The notes below the pieces were generated by a model. It ran no database searches. It was given only the letters and a program-made list of their open reading frames with translations, and was not told the DNA's origin. 39,510 nt of DNA from the NCBI GenBank assembly GCA_003215335.1, contig QCKM01000013.1, positions 1-39,510 of the forward strand, in the 5' to 3' direction. This document shows, piece after piece, positions 16,747 through 25,289 of the stretch (position 1 is its first letter; the number at the start of each line of letters is the position of its first letter). Source of the DNA: Prochlorococcus sp. AG-409-P01. Its GTDB lineage: Bacteria; Cyanobacteriota; Cyanobacteriia; PCC-6307; Cyanobiaceae. The translations under genes and the position numbers were made by a program.

Positions 16747-17085
16747 TTAAGAGTTATTCACCACACTTTTTTGATAAAACCGCAGAAATCCCAGCACCAC
16801 AAGCGCATCACTCAGTGTCAGAAAGGCTTCTGCCGCTCCATGTAGTGGGTCAACGTCAGTCAGCTCACCACCATAAATCTGCTTGGCAACTATCGCAAAA
16901 ATTATCGTCATCAATACAAAAAGCAGCGTAAGCCTGAAGCCAAGCAGCGAGACTTTGGGTATTGACTCACTTTTCTGGGCCCAATACAGAAAAACTAGGT
17001 ATGGGAATAGAGAAAGTACAAAAAATGGTGAAGGGTCAACGTTGTTTAGAAATTCCCATAAAGATGTTGCCGTTTCATGAATCAT
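16747..17085 (-). CDS. DUF3593 family membrane protein
   Basis: This 112-residue protein has three or four hydrophobic segments (about 20-37, 48-68, 84-103). The opening NVDPSPFFVLSLFPYLVFLYWA and the GGELTDVDPLHGAAEAFLTLSDALVVLGF segment match the cyanobacterial/plastid DUF3593 family. No biochemical function is established. Its start overlaps the stop of the upstream DUF2499 gene in an ATGA (17082-17085), so translation is coupled, and the two families are found side by side in other cyanobacteria and in plants. A role as a two-protein complex in thylakoids is inference. Confidence 0.85.
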   Translation of the reverse strand: MIHETATSLWEFLNNVDPSPFFVLSLFPYLVFLYWAQKSESIPKVSLLGFRLTLLFVLMTIIFAIVAKQIYGGELTDVDPLHGAAEAFLTLSDALVVLGFLRFYQKSVVNNS

Positions 17086-17384
17086 GAAAGTTGCCTCTCT
17101 TGCTTAACGAGATTCCATGCAGCCAATGCCAAACAAGCATTGCCGAATGTTGTCAATCCTGCCTGTAGGACCACTAACCCATAAAGGTTTTCAGGATTGT
17201 CAAAAATATGCCAAGTGATTGCTGCCATTGCGCTTGTGAGATTGGGCAGCATCGCTATTGCTAGCCAAGTAAGAGCCCTTTTCTTCATTGATTTACCAGT
17301 AAGGACAATCAAAATGATGGCGACTGACCACTCAAATAAAGTTGCCAAATGGATCCACCAAGTTCCTAACGATAATTCGTGCAC
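17082..17384 (-). CDS. DUF2499 family membrane protein
   Basis: This 100-residue protein begins MHELSLGTWWIHLATLFEWSVA and has three predicted helices (about 11-30, 37-55, 65-90). The THLATxxEW-type opening, the NLTSAMAAITWHIFDN block and the GLVVLQAGLTTFGNACLALAA helix identify it as DUF2499, a cyanobacterial and chloroplast family of unknown function. It is translationally coupled to the DUF3593 gene through a 4-base overlap. The pair lies next to psaK on the same strand but is separated from it by 67 bases, so it could read through into psaK. Confidence 0.85.
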   Translation of the reverse strand: MHELSLGTWWIHLATLFEWSVAIILIVLTGKSMKKRALTWLAIAMLPNLTSAMAAITWHIFDNPENLYGLVVLQAGLTTFGNACLALAAWNLVKQERQLS

Positions 17385-17470
17385 GGTAAAGATCAGCTAG
17401 AAGCTAATTCTATTGGATGAACTAGTATTTAAACGCATTCAAAGGATCATCCAGTGCCTAGAGCAGCATT

Positions 17471-17484
17471 CACTAAATTTAGTG
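17471..17484. repeat. 14-base perfect palindrome
   Basis: CACTAAATTTAGTG is perfectly self-complementary and lies 19 bases past the stop of the transporter ATPase gene (minus strand). It could be a short terminator stem without a T-tract or a dimeric-protein site. The rest of the 17385-17502 gap shows nothing else. Confidence 0.3.
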
Positions 17485-17502
17485 GGTCTTGTCAATACAA
17501 TA

Positions 17503-18483
17503 TCAAAATATATTGCTGATCCTTTTGCCAGATATTCTCTCAAATAAATGTTGTTTATCTGTTTCCCAACCAATAAATAAGTTCTCAGAAATTGAAATAT
17601 CAGGTTTAGCTAGTAATCTGATTAATCCATATGAGCTTTCAAGCATCAATAATTGGTTCGACCCAAGCCACTCTTTATAACTAAGTCGACATGGAATTCC
17701 TTGTTGACGTAATTCCAGATCTTCTGCCCGTACACCTTTAATAAAATCGGAACCATCTTTAAAGAAATTCATTTGTGGTCGACCAATAAATTTCGCCACA
17801 AATAGACTCGATGGCTTTGTATATAGTTCTGTAGGTGTCCCTATTTGCTCAATATTTCCATTGTTAAGGACAGCTATTTTGTCAGCCATTGACATTGCTT
17901 CATGCTGATCATGAGTTACATATAGTATTGGTTTGTTGTCATTTAATATGATGTTTCTAAACTCAGGGCGTAAGTCTTCTTTAAGTTGAGCATCTAGGTT
18001 GCTCATTGGCTCATCTAATAAATATATAAGAGGATCTCTTAGAAGGGCCCTCGCCAAAGCAACTCTTTGTCTTTGTCCACCAGAAAGTTGAGAAGGTTTT
18101 CTTGATGAATAACCATCAAGTTGGAGTAGAGAGATCATTGCACCAACTTTATCTCTAACTGTTCTTTCTTGTGTTCCTCTTATTCTTAAACCTAAAGCAA
18201 GATTTTCATATACATCGAGATGAGGAAATAGCGCATAACTTTGAAATACCATTCCTATTCTTCGCTGTACCGGGGATATATTAGTGACATTGGTATTATT
18301 AATGAGTATATGTCCTTCATCGGGGTTTTCTAATCCTGCTATTAGTCGTAAAGAAGTGCTCTTACCACAACCACTTGGCCCAAGTAGAGCAAGAAACTCA
18401 CCATTTGATACCTTTAGATTCATGTTTCTAATTATCCATTCTTGCCCATAGATGCGTCCTACATTTACAAGTTCTAATGTCAT
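17503..18483 (-). CDS. ggtA: ABC transporter ATP-binding protein (osmolyte/sugar, GgtA/MalK type)
   Basis: This ATPase powers import through the adjacent permeases. Domains: an ABC nucleotide-binding domain with Walker A GPSGCGKS (35-42), Q-loop VFQSYALFPH, signature LSGGQRQR (133-140), Walker B ending LLDEP and switch histidine in YVTHDQHEAMS, followed by a short regulatory C-terminal region with MalK-type landmarks FIGRPQMNFF and GVRAEDLEL. At 326 residues it is somewhat shorter than typical MalK-type subunits (about 360), the loss being in the C-terminal regulatory domain. Its start overlaps the upstream permease stop in ATGA (18480-18483). The name ggtA is inferred from linkage to ggpS. 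Confidence 0.85.
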   Translation of the reverse strand: MTLELVNVGRIYGQEWIIRNMNLKVSNGEFLALLGPSGCGKSTSLRLIAGLENPDEGHILINNTNVTNISPVQRRIGMVFQSYALFPHLDVYENLALGLRIRGTQERTVRDKVGAMISLLQLDGYSSRKPSQLSGGQRQRVALARALLRDPLIYLLDEPMSNLDAQLKEDLRPEFRNIILNDNKPILYVTHDQHEAMSMADKIAVLNNGNIEQIGTPTELYTKPSSLFVAKFIGRPQMNFFKDGSDFIKGVRAEDLELRQQGIPCRLSYKEWLGSNQLLMLESSYGLIRLLAKPDISISENLFIGWETDKQHLFERISGKRISNIF

Positions 18484-19304
18484 CCTTTTACAGCTCCTTT
18501 TGTGAGACCAGAAATAATTTGACTTTGGAAGATTAATACAATTATTAATAGCGGTATAGATGCTAATACAGTTGCTGCAGCATAAGCACCATATGGTACT
18601 GAATATACAGAAGAACCAGCAATTCTTGATATTGCAACAGGTAATGTGAGTAGAGCTGGGTCACTTATCCAGGTCAGAGATATTGGAAATTCATTCCAAG
18701 AAAATAAGAAAACTAGGATTGCTGTACTTGCCGTTGATGGTCCAATAAGTGGAAGTAATACCCAACGTAGACGTTGGAAAAAATTCAACCCTTCTAGTTT
18801 TGCTGCGTCTTCAAGGTCAAAAGGCAGATCTTTAAAGGCTGCAGAAAGTAATAGAAGTGATAGAGGCATAGATAATGCAGTGTATGGAATACTTAAAGCC
18901 AGTAAATTGTTCCCAATGTTTAAGCCCCTAGCAATTTCTAATAATGCTAGAAATAGTAAGACATATGGGAAAAGAGCCACACCAAAAAGCACTGTTTTAA
19001 TAATTGATGAAGTGCGTGCTTTTAATTTTGATATTCCATACGCAGCAGGAATTGAAAGTAATATACAGAATAGTGTTGAAGCTATACCAACAACAAAGCT
19101 ATTCCAAAGATACCTCCAGAAGGGCGTCTCACTACTAAGTATTAATTTATAATTAGATAAAGTCCACCTATTCATGACATCATTAAATGGATTAATTAAA
19201 GCATCAGCAGTAGAAAATGATGTATAAAGCTGCCAGGCCAATGGACCTATAGCCCATATTACTAAAATTGTAAATAATAGATTTTGACGTAATATCGATT
19301 TCAT
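18480..19304 (-). CDS. ggtD: ABC transporter permease (MalG type, probable GgtD)
   Basis: This is an inner-membrane subunit of the ABC importer, with about six helices and the type I permease EAA-like loop DLEDAAKLEGLNFFQRLRWVLLP near the ATPase contact. I prefer the start at ATG 19304 (MKSILRQNLLF, 274 residues) because it makes a 4-base ATGA overlap with the preceding permease stop; ATG 19343 gives 287 residues and a 43-base overlap. The GgtD assignment rests on order and on being in the operon with ggpS. The substrate is presumably glucosylglycerol and related osmolytes or disaccharides. Confidence 0.82.
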   Translation of the reverse strand: MKSILRQNLLFTILVIWAIGPLAWQLYTSFSTADALINPFNDVMNRWTLSNYKLILSSETPFWRYLWNSFVVGIASTLFCILLSIPAAYGISKLKARTSSIIKTVLFGVALFPYVLLFLALLEIARGLNIGNNLLALSIPYTALSMPLSLLLLSAAFKDLPFDLEDAAKLEGLNFFQRLRWVLLPLIGPSTASTAILVFLFSWNEFPISLTWISDPALLTLPVAISRIAGSSVYSVPYGAYAAATVLASIPLLIIVLIFQSQIISGLTKGAVKG

Positions 19305-20161
19305 GCTTCTGTCAAGTCTTTTATTTTGCTGAGTGTTATCCATGAGAATATATATGCCGCAATTAATATTATGAAGCTTGCCATCATAATTGTTGCACTA
19401 TAGCCAAAATCAAGAAATCTCATTGCATTAATATATGCATACATAGCCAAACTTTCTGTACTGCTAGATGGCCCACCGCCTGTAAGTACTTGTATTAAGT
19501 CAAAAACACCAAATGCTTGAGCAAGTCTAAATAATAAGCACACTAATATATATGGTTGTAATAACGGAATTGTTATTTTCATGAGTGCAGACAATGGTTT
19601 GCCACCTTCAAGGCGAAATGCCTCATACAAGTCTTCGGGTATGGTTTGTATGCCCGCAAGCAAAATAAGGGTTACAAATGGTGTTGTCTTCCATACGTCA
19701 GCTAAAACTGTGCCGATCCATGCAAAATTTGGATCTGAGAGTATATTTATTTGATCATAGCCAAGAATCTGAATTAGCTGTTCTATTGGACCATAAGGAC
19801 TATTAAATATCCATCTCCAGCCAAGTGCCATAACGGTTGTAGGCAAAGCCCATGGTAGTAACGTTAGTGCTCTTACAAGCCCTCTGCCTCGCCACCGTTG
19901 ATCTAGTATCAAAGCGATAAATATTGCTAGTATAAGTTCGAGAATTACTGACAAACAGGCAAAACGAGTTGTTTGAAATAAGTCTATCCAAAATCTTTGA
20001 TCACTTATTAATCTGTACCAATTAGCACCATTATTATAAACTGGCTCTAGTCCAGTTATAACTGATGATGCATGCATACTAAGCCATCCATATCGAATTA
20101 TTGGATAACTAAAAAAAGTCATTATTAGAAGTGATGCAGGTAATAAAAGTAGGAATATCAT
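19301..20161 (-). CDS. ggtC: ABC transporter permease (MalF type, probable GgtC)
   Basis: This 286-residue permease has an N-terminal helix (MIFLLLLPASLLIMTFFSYPII) and about five more, the usual MalF-type layout without an extended periplasmic loop. The coupling loop is DLYEAFRLEGGKPLSALMKITIPLL, and AQAFGVFDLIQVLTGGGPSSSTE is the conserved region after it. Its start codon overlaps the last base of the binding-protein stop (TAATG at 20161), indicating translational coupling. It pairs with the next permease to form the transmembrane channel. Substrate assignment to glucosylglycerol is by operon context. Confidence 0.85.
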   Translation of the reverse strand: MIFLLLLPASLLIMTFFSYPIIRYGWLSMHASSVITGLEPVYNNGANWYRLISDQRFWIDLFQTTRFACLSVILELILAIFIALILDQRWRGRGLVRALTLLPWALPTTVMALGWRWIFNSPYGPIEQLIQILGYDQINILSDPNFAWIGTVLADVWKTTPFVTLILLAGIQTIPEDLYEAFRLEGGKPLSALMKITIPLLQPYILVCLLFRLAQAFGVFDLIQVLTGGGPSSSTESLAMYAYINAMRFLDFGYSATIMMASFIILIAAYIFSWITLSKIKDLTEA

Positions 20162-21465
20162 TATAATTCGCCAGCTGAGTATAGGATAGCTTCAGTATCA
20201 ATCTTAGCCTTTTTCATGGCAGTCATAACATCATCATGCCCAGTTAATATTGAGCTCAAATTTCTTTGAAGCACGTCACTAATTTGTGCATAAAGTGCAG
20301 TTTGTGGACGTTGATCAGTTATTTTCAAAGCCTCATTAAGGGTGCTAAGTATTGGATAATTAGCTAATAATATTGTGTCATTTAAGACTTTCTTAGTTGT
20401 AGGTGTATAAGAATTTCTAATAAAGAGCTCAGTCAATGAATCATCAGAAGTTAAGTATCTAATAACATTTTCTGACTCTCTGGGATGGGTTGATTTTTCA
20501 AGTACTGAAAAACCCCAGCTTCCTAATGTTGCCGAGGATCTATATCCTGGAGCTGCAACCATAGTTGATACACTTACTTTACCTTGGACATTACTTGATT
20601 CTTTTTGTAATTCTGACCATGCGTATGGCCAATTTCTCATAAATGCTGCATCCCCTGACTTAAAAGCTTGTAATGCTTCAGATTCAGTGTAGTTAGTCGT
20701 TGACCTTGGACTTACTCCGCTATCAACAAGAGATTTGAGCCAATTGGCAGCATCAATGCTTTCGGGTTCATTGAGCCCAACATCAGTTTTCCCCTTTAAC
20801 CAATAGCCACCGTGCCCTTTGAGGATTTCAAGAAAGACACAACTCAGGCCTTCATATTGTTTCCCTTGGAACACGTATCCATATTTTACTTTGCCAGATT
20901 TTTGAAGTTTAGTACTAAGTTCGACAAGTTCTTCTGTATTACTAGGAGCCTTTTTAAGAAGATCATTTCTCCAATAAAGAAGACCAATGTCTGCTACAAG
21001 AGGCCATCTATATAAATGGCCATTATATTCATTTCCAAGTCTTGCTCCGTCAGCGAGTTCTGATTTGTCAGTTTCACTAAAACTTTCATCTAAGTTTTTT
21101 AGCCACCCTGCTTCAGCATATTTTGCTAGCCACGTAACATCAATCAAAATTATGTCATAAGGAGAATTTCCCAATAACAAACTACTAATGGCTAAATCTG
21201 ATACAGATTCTGTTTCCATAGGACCTCTAATCACATTAACATGTATTTTTTCAGAATTATTTCTATTGTAAGTGTCAATTAATCTTGATGTTGAGTCAAC
21301 AAATGGTGACGGCATAAGTATATTTATTTGTGTATACCTATTTGATAATGAATATGATTTGTAGAAGAAAAGTGTTGCTATCGTAAAGATAGTGAGTATA
21401 AATGATATTAAAAACCTTCTCATAGCTGATTTGTTTTTAATCACATAGCTGCTGTAATTGCTCAT
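20161..21465 (-). CDS. ggtB: ABC transporter extracellular substrate-binding protein (probable GgtB)
   Basis: This 434-residue family-1 solute-binding protein captures the sugar or osmolyte outside the plasma membrane. A basic N-terminus and hydrophobic helix (RRFLISFILTIFTIATLFFY, about 16-35) precede the mature domain, with sugar-binder landmarks such as DIILIDVTWLAKYAEAGWLK, RWPLVADIGLLYWRNDL and DAAFMRNWPYAW. There is no cysteine in a lipobox position, so it is not an obvious lipoprotein and is either cleaved or stays anchored. ATG 21465 overlaps ggpS by 29 bases; ATG 21423 would remove that overlap. The product follows ggpS in the same operon. Confidence 0.83.
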   Translation of the reverse strand: MSNYSSYVIKNKSAMRRFLISFILTIFTIATLFFYKSYSLSNRYTQINILMPSPFVDSTSRLIDTYNRNNSEKIHVNVIRGPMETESVSDLAISSLLLGNSPYDIILIDVTWLAKYAEAGWLKNLDESFSETDKSELADGARLGNEYNGHLYRWPLVADIGLLYWRNDLLKKAPSNTEELVELSTKLQKSGKVKYGYVFQGKQYEGLSCVFLEILKGHGGYWLKGKTDVGLNEPESIDAANWLKSLVDSGVSPRSTTNYTESEALQAFKSGDAAFMRNWPYAWSELQKESSNVQGKVSVSTMVAAPGYRSSATLGSWGFSVLEKSTHPRESENVIRYLTSDDSLTELFIRNSYTPTTKKVLNDTILLANYPILSTLNEALKITDQRPQTALYAQISDVLQRNLSSILTGHDDVMTAMKKAKIDTEAILYSAGEL

Positions 21466-22921
21466 TTGCCCAATCTTTAACTGTAAATGCTTCTACAGCT
21501 TGAGTCATATTTGCCATTCTTTTAAGTTGTTCAGTTTTAGGCATTTCTATTGCCTCCTCAATTGCTTCATCCATGCGTCTATGAGAATAAGGATTAGTCA
21601 GTACAGCTCCATCTAAGAGTACAGATGCTCCTGTAAATTCTGAAAGTACGAGTACACCACCTTTATTTTTTCTTGCAGCCGCGTATTCCTTAGCTACTAG
21701 GTTTAATCCATCTCTCAAAGGTGTTATCCAACAAATGTCAGCTTGACTAAACCATGCAACCATTTCTTCATATGGAATTCGTCTAGTCGAAAATCGAATA
21801 GGCACCCAATCTACAAGACTAAAACGACCATTAATTCTTCCAGCCATTTCTTCTATTGATCTTTGTGTCTCTTCATAGATTTTCATTCCAGATGCAGCAG
21901 CTACGCAAGCAAGCATTAGAACGACTTTTCCATGTAGATCTTTTCTCCTTTCTAGTAACCTTTCAAAAGCTAGTAAAAGTTGCTCATTGCCTTTTGTATA
22001 GTCAACTCTACTAGCAGAAAGAATTAATTTTCTTCCTTTCTTTGTACTTGTTTCTATCTCGTTACCATATTCTGTAACTATATCCGATTTTATTAGTTCC
22101 GTTATTAGATCTGGAGATGTACCTACAGGTGATGATAATAATTTAACTCTTTTGCCTTGATATTCAAGCCATGGCGTTTCAGATGGTTCTGTTAATGCAC
22201 TTCCGACTGATATAAATTTAGGGCTTACTAACTCTTTAGGACCTTTTGTTGCTCCTACTAGGCAATTCGCAGAACGAGCAAAGTTTTCTGTATAACGCGG
22301 TATATGAAAGCCAACTACATCGCAAGCAAGTAAACTCGATAAGATTTGATTTCTCCAAGGAAGTATTGCAAAAACATCATTGCAAGGAAATGGAGTGTGA
22401 TGAAAGAATGCAATTTTTATATCTGGTCTTTTTTCTTTTATCATCCCTGGCACTAACCAAAGATTATAATCATGAACCCATACAGTTGCATTTTTAGTAG
22501 CTTCTAGGCATGCAGCATTTGCAAATCTAGAGTTAACTTCTTCAAAAATACTCCAATCTGCGTTGTTAATCTCAAAATAGGTCGGGAATGTGTGAAGAAC
22601 AGGCCAGAAAGATTCTTTTGATGTTACGTGGTAGAAACTGCTTATCTGCTCTTCAGACAGTGGAATTCTTCTAAGTGTAAATTCCGCTGGCTCTTTCATT
22701 GTGATTTTTTCATCTTCGGAGTTATTGAGATCATCAACTTTCCTCCATGCGATCCATGTCCCATCAGTTCTATTAAGAAATAAGTTTCTAAGTGTAGGAA
22801 TAATTCCATTTGGACTTTTTTGATCTACCCATATTCTCTGACCTGTTTCTGATACACCCTCATCAAATGGTGTTCTGTGATAAAGAAGTATAAACGGACT
22901 ACTACCTTGTTGAGAGGTCAA
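21437..22921 (-). CDS. ggpS: glucosylglycerol-phosphate synthase
   Basis: GgpS (glycosyltransferase family 20) joins ADP-glucose and glycerol-3-phosphate to glucosylglycerol-phosphate, the precursor of the osmolyte glucosylglycerol. The signature N-terminus ILLYHRTPFDE and KSPNGIIPTLRNLF distinguishes it from trehalose-phosphate synthase; conserved family elements include WVHDYNLWLVPG, FFHHTPFP, SRVDYTKGNEQ and the nucleotide-sugar site PLRDGLNLVAKEY. The best start is TTG 22921 (494 residues, protein MTSQQGSS...), because AAGGAG sits 6 bases upstream at 22933-22928; the frame extends to TTG 22951. It leads the transporter operon. A GgpP phosphatase gene is not present anywhere in the window. 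Confidence 0.93.
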   Translation of the reverse strand: MTSQQGSSPFILLYHRTPFDEGVSETGQRIWVDQKSPNGIIPTLRNLFLNRTDGTWIAWRKVDDLNNSEDEKITMKEPAEFTLRRIPLSEEQISSFYHVTSKESFWPVLHTFPTYFEINNADWSIFEEVNSRFANAACLEATKNATVWVHDYNLWLVPGMIKEKRPDIKIAFFHHTPFPCNDVFAILPWRNQILSSLLACDVVGFHIPRYTENFARSANCLVGATKGPKELVSPKFISVGSALTEPSETPWLEYQGKRVKLLSSPVGTSPDLITELIKSDIVTEYGNEIETSTKKGRKLILSASRVDYTKGNEQLLLAFERLLERRKDLHGKVVLMLACVAAASGMKIYEETQRSIEEMAGRINGRFSLVDWVPIRFSTRRIPYEEMVAWFSQADICWITPLRDGLNLVAKEYAAARKNKGGVLVLSEFTGASVLLDGAVLTNPYSHRRMDEAIEEAIEMPKTEQLKRMANMTQAVEAFTVKDWANEQLQQLCD

Positions 22922-23088
22922 ATTTGTCTCCTTAATTTCAAAGACGAACAAACGCCTTTCTCTAATAATACCATTAACTAGTTATCCAATTTTGTCAAAC
23001 GATTTGCACATGATGTAACTTTTAATTAGGTTTATGTATTCTATTAAGCATTTATATTCTTTTTTTAACTTTAATTGTTTATTTCAAA

Positions 23089-23325
23089 TTAGAGATTATT
23101 TAAATCTACACCAAGTGATTTTGCGTATGTACCTAAGCCTTTCTTTTGAATTGTTTTTAACGCTCTAGTAGTCACCCGAATATTCACCCATTTGTTTCCT
23201 TCCTTCCACCATAATCTTCTTTTTTGAAGATTGGGTTGTTGAAGTTTCTTGGTGCGGATGTGTGAATGGCTGACTGCCATTCCATTATTCGCCTTGGTCC
23301 CTGTGAGCTGGCATACCCGAGACAT
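23089..23325 (-). CDS. rpmB: 50S ribosomal protein L28
   Basis: L28 is a small basic protein of the large ribosomal subunit. The 78-residue protein starts [22 protein letters not shown], exactly the bacterial L28 opening with RVCQLTGKxxxxGNxVSHSH, and contains the [15 protein letters not shown] segment and the [15 protein letters not shown]-terminal motif. Zinc-finger cysteines of the Cys-containing form are absent (only one cysteine). It lies 59 bases downstream of htpG on the same strand and is followed by 137 noncoding bases before the ggpS region. Confidence 0.97.
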
Positions 23326-23384
23326 GTTTGGGCCTCTTTACGACTGAGTTCAAATTTATAGCCTTACTCTATCAAACCCTTCTC

Positions 23385-25289
23385 TCATAAGGATCTTTCC
23401 AGTAGGCCGCTGAGTAGTTCAGCACTTCTTTTTTGAAAATTAGATATTTCTGATGCCTCTAGGCCGCCTACCCCTAAACGAGCCAAGTCGTATAAATGAG
23501 TAGCGAGCTCTTTGGCTAACCCAGCTGATTCAGATTCTTGTTCTGTGCCAACTATCACGGATCCAGAGTTGAGCTTTATAAGGGCCTCTACAAGCCTGTG
23601 AGATTGGTTTAAAACAATTACATGGTGCTCAGGTAATCCAGGAAGCCTTTGATCCATAAGCGCACTAATGTCATTGATTCTTCTCATTTGCTCTGGCAGA
23701 AGAATCATTGCCGGTGGTGCTTGATCACCTTTAATGGCTTGGACTTGTATCGTCACATTATCATTGTTAAGAGCTTTTTTTACTATTGACCTAATAACAT
23801 CAGCTTGAGTCTCACCATCTTGATTGGCTATATCTCCTGTCTCATCAGTAAGACTTTTATCTAATTCAGCATCTACTCGTTGAAACTTAATCTCCGGATT
23901 TTTGTTTTCAAGCCATGGAATGAATTGTGTGTCGATTACAGTTTCTGCTTTTAGTATTTCTGCACCTTGTGATTTCCAAAGGTTTAGTGCACTAGCCTGA
24001 GAAATCTCATCAGTACAGTAAAGTATTCTGGTATTCTCTGATTTGGGTTGCCGCTCGATGTAATTATTTAATGTTGTGTACAGCTTTGATCCAGATTTCA
24101 AATATTCTTGTTGCTCACTGTTGATTTTATCATCTCCTGACTGTGTTGTCTCATAAATAAATAGATCCTTTATTTGCTCTGAGAATTTATCATCTTCCAT
24201 TGCTCCAATTTTTAGAAATGGTGCTAACGAGTCCCATATTTCTGCATAAAATTCGGGTTTATCATTCATGATATTCCTTAATCGATCTGCTACCTTCTTG
24301 GCCACAAACCCGCCGATTGACCTTACTTTTCTATCAGTTTGCAAAGCACTTCTACTTACATTTAATGGTATATCTGTAGAATCTAAAACTCCTCTTAATG
24401 GTAGTAGATACCTTGGAACTACCTCTTTTATAGAATCACTCACAAAAACTTGGTTGCTATACAACTTGATATCACCCTTTTCCCAATCGGCTCTTCCACT
24501 AATTTTAGGGAAATAAAGTATTCCCTGTAAATTATATGGATAATCTGTTTTTAGATGAATCCACAATAACGGATCTCCTTGGAAAGGGTATAGATATCTA
24601 TAGAGTTCAATGTAATCCTGTTCTGTAAGCTCATTTTGGTTTTTTCTCCATGCAGGATTACGCTTGTTTATTGATTCACCTTCTAGTTGGACATCAATAT
24701 TCATAAAATCACAATATTTAGTTATTAGACTTTTGATTCTGCTTGGTTCTATATATTCAAGCTCTTCGTCTAATAAATAAAGAATAATTTGCGTACCTAC
24801 TTCATCCTTTTCTGCTTCTTCAAGAGTAAATTGTGGTGAACCATCACATTTCCATCTCACCGCCTTAGTGTTTTTTAAGGCTGATTTAGTCAGAATTTCT
24901 ACATTTTTAGCAACCATAAAACTAGAATAAAAGCCTAGGCCAAAATGTCCGATGATTCCATCTTCTGAGGATTTGTATTTCTCTAAAAATTCCTCTGCAC
25001 TGGAAAATGCTACTTGATTTATATATTTTTTGACCTCATCGGCTGTCATTCCAATGCCATTGTCTTGAACAGTCAATGTTTTGTTTTCTCTGTCAATACT
25101 GATTAGAATCTGTTCAGTTTCACACTCATCACAATCTCCAGAAATTGATGCCATTCTTCTTTTGCTAATAGCGTCAATCCCATTACTAACTAATTCTCTT
25201 AGAAATATTTCATGATCAGAATATACTGCTTTTTTAATGATTGGGAATATATTTTCAGTATGAATCTGAATTTGTCCTTCTTCGAACAT
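23385..25289 (-). CDS. htpG: chaperone HtpG (Hsp90)
   Basis: HtpG is the bacterial Hsp90, an ATP-driven dimeric chaperone; in cyanobacteria it supports heat, light and oxidative-stress tolerance. The 634-residue protein has the GHKL ATPase N-domain with catalytic glutamate in FLRELVSNGIDAISKRR (the usual SNASDA reads SNGIDA), VQDNGIGMT, the ATP-lid glycine segment GHFGLGFYSSFMVA, and then the middle and C-terminal dimerisation domains. It starts at ATG 25289. The 84 bases before it contain an unusual hairpin at 25325-25353 that could control translation. It lies between the ferredoxin gene upstream and rpmB downstream, all on the minus strand. Confidence 0.97.
   Translation of the reverse strand: MFEEGQIQIHTENIFPIIKKAVYSDHEIFLRELVSNGIDAISKRRMASISGDCDECETEQILISIDRENKTLTVQDNGIGMTADEVKKYINQVAFSSAEEFLEKYKSSEDGIIGHFGLGFYSSFMVAKNVEILTKSALKNTKAVRWKCDGSPQFTLEEAEKDEVGTQIILYLLDEELEYIEPSRIKSLITKYCDFMNIDVQLEGESINKRNPAWRKNQNELTEQDYIELYRYLYPFQGDPLLWIHLKTDYPYNLQGILYFPKISGRADWEKGDIKLYSNQVFVSDSIKEVVPRYLLPLRGVLDSTDIPLNVSRSALQTDRKVRSIGGFVAKKVADRLRNIMNDKPEFYAEIWDSLAPFLKIGAMEDDKFSEQIKDLFIYETTQSGDDKINSEQQEYLKSGSKLYTTLNNYIERQPKSENTRILYCTDEISQASALNLWKSQGAEILKAETVIDTQFIPWLENKNPEIKFQRVDAELDKSLTDETGDIANQDGETQADVIRSIVKKALNNDNVTIQVQAIKGDQAPPAMILLPEQMRRINDISALMDQRLPGLPEHHVIVLNQSHRLVEALIKLNSGSVIVGTEQESESAGLAKELATHLYDLARLGVGGLEASEISNFQKRSAELLSGLLERSL

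Follow-up and report, generated by a model that had tools for sequence, protein, structure and literature searches.

Among the closest described systems for glucosylglycerol (GG), that of Synechocystis PCC 6803 comprises the synthase GgpS (sll1566), the phosphatase GgpP (slr0746) and the transporter proteins GgtA (slr0747) and GgtBCD (slr0529-0531), and in Synechococcus WH8102 GgpS (SYNW1281) belongs to an operon, SYNW1279-1286, with GgpP (SYNW0860) outside it, as given in the accessible part of PMC2874817. The available portions of three further papers report that GG accumulates in WH7803 and WH8102 (PMC6753628), that both ggpS and ggpP rise at 50 practical salinity units in the marine strain RS9907 (PMC12834511), and that both genes occur in all marine strains covered (PMC9361551). 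It is also a known oddity that Prochlorococcus can keep ggpP without ggpS, for which a role in sucrose phosphate metabolism has been guessed in the available text of PMC11505929; the term 'ggpP' does not occur in the accessible part of a low-salinity study of two Prochlorococcus strains (PMC9606707). Here we analysed a stretch of 39,510 nucleotides from Prochlorococcus sp. AG-409-P01 (contig QCKM01000013.1; GC content 38.6%), hereafter the window, in which the minus strand carries, at positions 17503-22921, ggpS followed by ggtB, ggtC, ggtD and ggtA.

This is very probably the standard GG operon of marine picocyanobacteria with its GgpP encoded on another contig, so that the absence of the phosphatase from the cluster reflects how the genes are arranged and not a gap in the pathway. 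The source genome (G000 in our labelling, in which G, C and L numbers denote genomes, contigs and loci) is 1.78 Mb long, in 31 contigs, and 99.5% complete. Its only match to the phosphatase profile PF09506 lies not in the window but on contig C8 (G000:C8:53331-54464, minus strand, E-value 3.9e-150), spans profile positions 1-387 of 388 without a stop, and scores 497.6 bits against TIGR02399 (cut-off 365.5; positions 4-385 of 389). Residues D24, D26, K248 and D306, which we take to be the HAD phosphatase motifs, are present in this protein and in every row of the alignment that covers that stretch. GgpP is present and intact in this genome.

The sequence-only reading of the window had rightly seen that neither the gene cluster nor the window holds a ggpP, and had offered three explanations, which makes it correct in part: the first, a phosphatase encoded elsewhere, is what we find, while the other two, a substitute phosphatase and an operon serving uptake or a different product, are superfluous given the intact protein on C8. 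The trehalose-phosphatase profile PF02358, one conceivable source of a substitute, has no match in the genome. In the cell, GgpP from the other contig would remove the phosphate from the product of GgpS, whose reaction we take from the available text of PMC6753628, and GgtABCD would recapture leaked GG and perhaps sucrose or trehalose. The same reading had raised the prospect of a ggpP elsewhere that is co-regulated with the operon; the genome search for a GgpP/StpA homologue confirms that the gene exists elsewhere, and its co-regulation, like the reactions and the transporter substrate in this strain, is predicted from the protein families involved.

That the five genes form an operon of synthase, binding protein, two permeases and ATPase, as had been proposed, is borne out by profile matches, position and conserved order. 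The ggpS gene (21437..22921, minus strand; TIGR02398, PF00982) passes TIGR02398, an equivalog model for GG-phosphate synthase, with 775.9 bits (cut-off 569), and is the sole PF00982 match in a profile search of the genome; the sequences nearest to it come from marine Prochlorococcus and Synechococcus and reach up to 79% identity. We took the TTG at 22921 as its start, a codon with AAGGAG immediately 5' of it; the frame is open up to another TTG at 22951, and alignments of several relatives begin at query residue 10-11. The Ggt set beside it is complete, all on the minus strand: the solute-binding protein ggtB (20161..21465; PF01547, 112.8 bits; order after ggpS conserved), the permeases ggtC (19301..20161; PF00528, 61.7 bits; order conserved) and ggtD (18480..19343, with a second ATG at 19304; PF00528, 45.6 bits; order conserved), and the ATPase ggtA, of MalK/UgpC type (17503..18483; PF00005, 130.5 bits).

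The start/stop overlaps that had been described along the whole operon hold firmly at two junctions, the stop of ggtB and the start of ggtC having one base in common and ggtD and ggtA overlapping by 4 nt. At the other two they depend on the start codon chosen: ggtC and ggtD overlap by 4 nt with the second ATG of ggtD and by 43 nt with the first, and ggpS and ggtB share 29 nt with a ggtB start at 21465, whereas an alternative ATG at 21423 leaves a gap of 13 nt. A simple promoter scan of 17300-23500 found 9 promoter-like sites where 24.3 were expected, none of them directly before ggpS on its strand, and is therefore uninformative as to a salt promoter there. As an observation apart, two small genes lie 3' of ggtA on the minus strand (16747-17384), with DUF2499 and DUF3593 domains (PF10693, PF12159) and a 4-nt overlap.

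The arrangement recurs among relatives. Of 35 loci from related picocyanobacteria (L003-L037), 29 show the order ggpS-ggtB-ggtC-ggtD-ggtA on one strand; among the other six, L003, L006, L027 and L033 are truncated where the available sequence ends, the ggtA-like match in L032 scores 288 bits, just below our 300-bit threshold, and L024 holds ggpS alone. Only one of the 35 (L032) has ggpP within the available flanks. We then counted layouts in 121 genomes of the family, treating genes on different contigs as apart and leaving out matches below cut-off to ggpS (G068, G095, G117) and to arsS, a gene of arsenosugar synthesis (8 of 109). Here ggpP is present in 66 genomes, ggpS over cut-off in 51, and both in 41, and in these 41 ggpP lies within 15 kb of ggpS in 11 and apart in 30; it is within 3 kb of arsS in 25 and near neither gene in five. 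A ggpP apart from ggpS is therefore common among these picocyanobacteria, and since this split layout is both common and in print, our finding for the window is ordinary and already known. It does illustrate that a pathway gene absent from an operon need not be absent from the genome. Ten family genomes, mostly incomplete assemblies, have ggpS without ggpP. One of them, G082 (L254, G082:C1:777001-796000), a single contig that is 99% complete, carries ggpS-ggtBCDA with no PF09506 match at E 0.001, and is thus an example, in another genome, of the state that had been suspected here.

Several points weigh against reading the window as part of an ordinary GG pathway. The activity of GgpP is assigned from family membership, and the substrate of Ggt from the order of the genes and from matches to general families; no NCBIfam transporter model was over cut-off among the matches listed (the best 25 for the ATPase), ggtA itself reaching 336.8 bits against NF008653, under the cut-off of 432. 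Moreover, the neighbour of ggpP on C8 is not a salt gene but arsS, an open frame 35 bp 3' of it on the same strand (the pair at L002:434-1441 and 1477-2685) that scores 451 bits against TIGR04167 (cut-off 300).

One may therefore consider an alternative, in which the C8 phosphatase has taken on some other task and GG synthesis is completed by another enzyme, for example one with a sucrose-phosphatase domain. The position of ggpP beside arsS and a dehydrogenase-like gene, away from the operon, would suit such a shift, as would the alteration of GgpP at four conserved positions in many genomes that lack ggpS, and an enzyme with the required domain is at hand, since PF05116 matches a 709-codon open frame on G000:C3 (E 3.8e-61) that is probably a fusion of sucrose-phosphate synthase and phosphatase. 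The residues themselves speak otherwise. We aligned 67 GgpP proteins of the family with an outgroup drawn from other cyanobacterial families, made up of 10 full-length proteins and one partial row, a second copy that is gapped at all four positions. All 10 full-length outgroup proteins have N61, G98, L158 and A214, the GgpP of the window genome has the same ancestral four, and of the 42 family proteins whose genomes bear ggpS, 41 combine N61, G98 and A214 with leucine or isoleucine at 158. Together with the lack of any PF02358 enzyme, this makes a shifted phosphatase in the present genome very improbable. Weaker still is the notion that the operon now mainly serves uptake, with ggpS a relic or the maker of another product, which would fit a synthase and transporter sharing an operon without a phosphatase, a state that G082 indicates can exist, but which we consider very unlikely given a ggpS that is intact and far over its equivalog cut-off and a GgpP that is intact as well.

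In genomes without ggpS the picture is different. Of the 121 genomes, 25 have ggpP without ggpS over cut-off, and in 23 of these ggpP lies no more than 3 kb from arsS; one of the 25, G068, has only fragments of ggpP and ggpS. A wider survey, of 334 genomes with a completeness of 85% or more, found ggpP in 221 and ggpS over cut-off in 89. The 67 family rows of the alignment consist of 60 of the 66 ggpP genes in the 121-genome sample (G013, G026, G056, G068, G072 and G096 being left out) and seven chosen by hand from the 221 ggpP genomes, many of which are also in that sample. Twenty of the 25 aligned proteins from ggpS-less genomes carry cysteine at positions 61, 98 and 158, together with serine (15) or methionine (five) at 214, as in L095, L094 and L113; every altered protein retains D24, D26, K248 and D306. 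The five unaltered ones come from G028, G070 and G119, which belong to one genus, and from G035 and G078, where ggpS may simply have gone unseen, each genome being 64% complete. Conversely, G401 is the only ggpS-bearing genome in the alignment with an altered GgpP (L163, L234); the 19 kb around its ggpS contain no match to ggtA, B, C or D, and it serves as a caution that GG production may not follow from having both ggpS and ggpP. The residue comparison did not extend to the second ggpS-bearing member of that genus, G387.

In a quick tree, built without the four signature columns and without the partial outgroup row, the 21 altered proteins fall in a supported group (Shimodaira-Hasegawa-like approximate likelihood-ratio test, 95) that also holds one unaltered protein from a ggpS-bearing genome, G049. 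The altered form requires two changes at fewest on this tree, of which well-supported branches force only one. The association with loss of ggpS thus represents one or two events, and because the tree allows one origin it may be a single event; an independent-pairs test for it had no power. The ratio of nonsynonymous to synonymous substitution rates (dN/dS) was 0.16-0.27 for altered GgpP (seven pairs), 0.18 and 0.33 for unaltered GgpP from ggpS-less genomes (two pairs), and 0.06-0.26 for GgpP from ggpS-bearing genomes (seven pairs, two with dS above 1). Constraint on GgpP is clear, and if anything somewhat weaker without ggpS. Relaxed constraint on the ancestral residues is a live alternative as an explanation of the alteration. 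Plain decay is at odds with this constraint and with the retention of the three cysteines in all 21 altered proteins.

The gene divergent from ggpP on C8, outside the window, encodes an unnamed protein of 509 amino acids that we call up1 (L091:10767-12296). It is present in 63 of the 121 family genomes, 61 of which also have ggpP; the two exceptions, G012 and G082, both have ggpS, and ggpP occurs without up1 in G013, G026, G056, G072 and G101. In 52 of the 61 genomes the two genes are divergent and at most 6 kb apart, and because they lie apart in the other nine, their co-occurrence is not only a matter of linkage. Across the class, 25 of 194 sampled genomes carry up1, every one of them together with ggpP, and outside the family up1 is found in five of 34 ggpP genomes; these co-occurrence counts are raw, uncorrected for kinship.

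By sequence up1 is without relatives of known function: it has no NCBIfam match, no Pfam match of note (only RRG7, E 0.17) and no phage match, and a search of PDB sequences up to E 10 returned only a putative beta-lactamase (E 0.66). Its predicted model (predicted local distance difference test score 84.2) resembles glycerol-3-phosphate dehydrogenase (G3PDH), which takes ranks 1-15 with Foldseek (best E 6.7e-9, with TM-scores of 0.47 normalised to the length of the model and 0.69 to that of the target) and ranks 1-16 with VIA (Z 25.8, 308 residues aligned at 3.0 A; rank 17 drops to Z 13.8). Judged by this model, up1 has a G3PDH-like fold, and its sequence lies outside the named dehydrogenase families. 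All 20 aligned proteins have K228-N229 and R337-N338, which may correspond to the catalytic Lys-Asn and Arg-Asn motifs of G3PDH; the usual glycine-rich NAD loop was not evident by eye, which argues against presuming dehydrogenase activity. In ggpS-bearing cells an up1-type enzyme could supply glycerol-3-phosphate to GgpS.

In the ggpS-less clade, which we infer from genome size, base composition and the literature to be core Prochlorococcus, the signature suggests a re-purposed phosphatase. The four altered positions may lie next to or within the substrate-binding part, going by HAD architecture. Our tentative proposal, which we hold to be somewhat less probable than its negation, is that GgpP with its three cysteines, changed residue 214 and conserved catalytic residues is no leftover there but may work with up1, and possibly arsS, on a substrate that bears glycerol phosphate but is not GG-3-phosphate; candidates are glycerol-3-phosphate and arsenosugar-glycerol phosphate. 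As for arsenic, 48 of the 66 ggpP-bearing family genomes have arsS no more than 3 kb from ggpP, but because arsS is over cut-off in 101 of the 121 genomes this nearness may be plain synteny, and we do not adopt an arsenic role for ggpP on these grounds; a search of open-licence full text found no paper containing both 'glucosylglycerol' and 'arsenosugar'.

We likewise rejected the sucrose-phosphate role guessed in the available text of PMC11505929 as the sole role of ggpP in ggpS-less genomes, a strong PF05116 match (E 2e-48 or better) being found in 11 of the 25 such genomes with ggpP in the 121-genome sample and lacking in 14. Among the 17 genomes of the 121-genome sample with altered GgpP, PF05116 is present in four, all with M214, and absent from 13, all with S214. 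Residue 214 thus tracks the sucrose-phosphatase domain, and kinship may be the cause. Among the papers listed by searches of open-licence full text, none could be recognised as dealing with the cysteine signature, up1 or the pairing of ggpP and arsS; neither the signature nor up1 was itself a search term, having no name. Together, the four-residue signature and up1 turn the occurrence of ggpP without ggpS into a testable question in a very abundant phototroph.

Returning to the window and its GG operon, the likeness to described systems is close. As in WH8102, ggpS and the ggt transporter share one operon and ggpP lies elsewhere on the chromosome, and we found no difference of kind, the comparison being made with the accessible part of the publication (PMC2874817) and not by sequence alignment with the window. 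Synechocystis PCC 6803 has, in the same source, both enzymes and all four transporter subunits in another arrangement: by its locus tags ggpP adjoins ggtA, with ggpS and ggtBCD elsewhere, whereas in the window ggpS stands together with all four ggt genes. The complete GG cluster of some relatives, for instance L106 (genome G024), has the same ggpS-ggtB-ggtC-ggtD-ggtA order as the window but, unlike it, continues in L106 with ggpP on the same strand and then a gene that by eye alone resembles a GH13 glucosidase, with the dehydrogenase-like up1 lying between ggtA and ggpP on the opposite strand.

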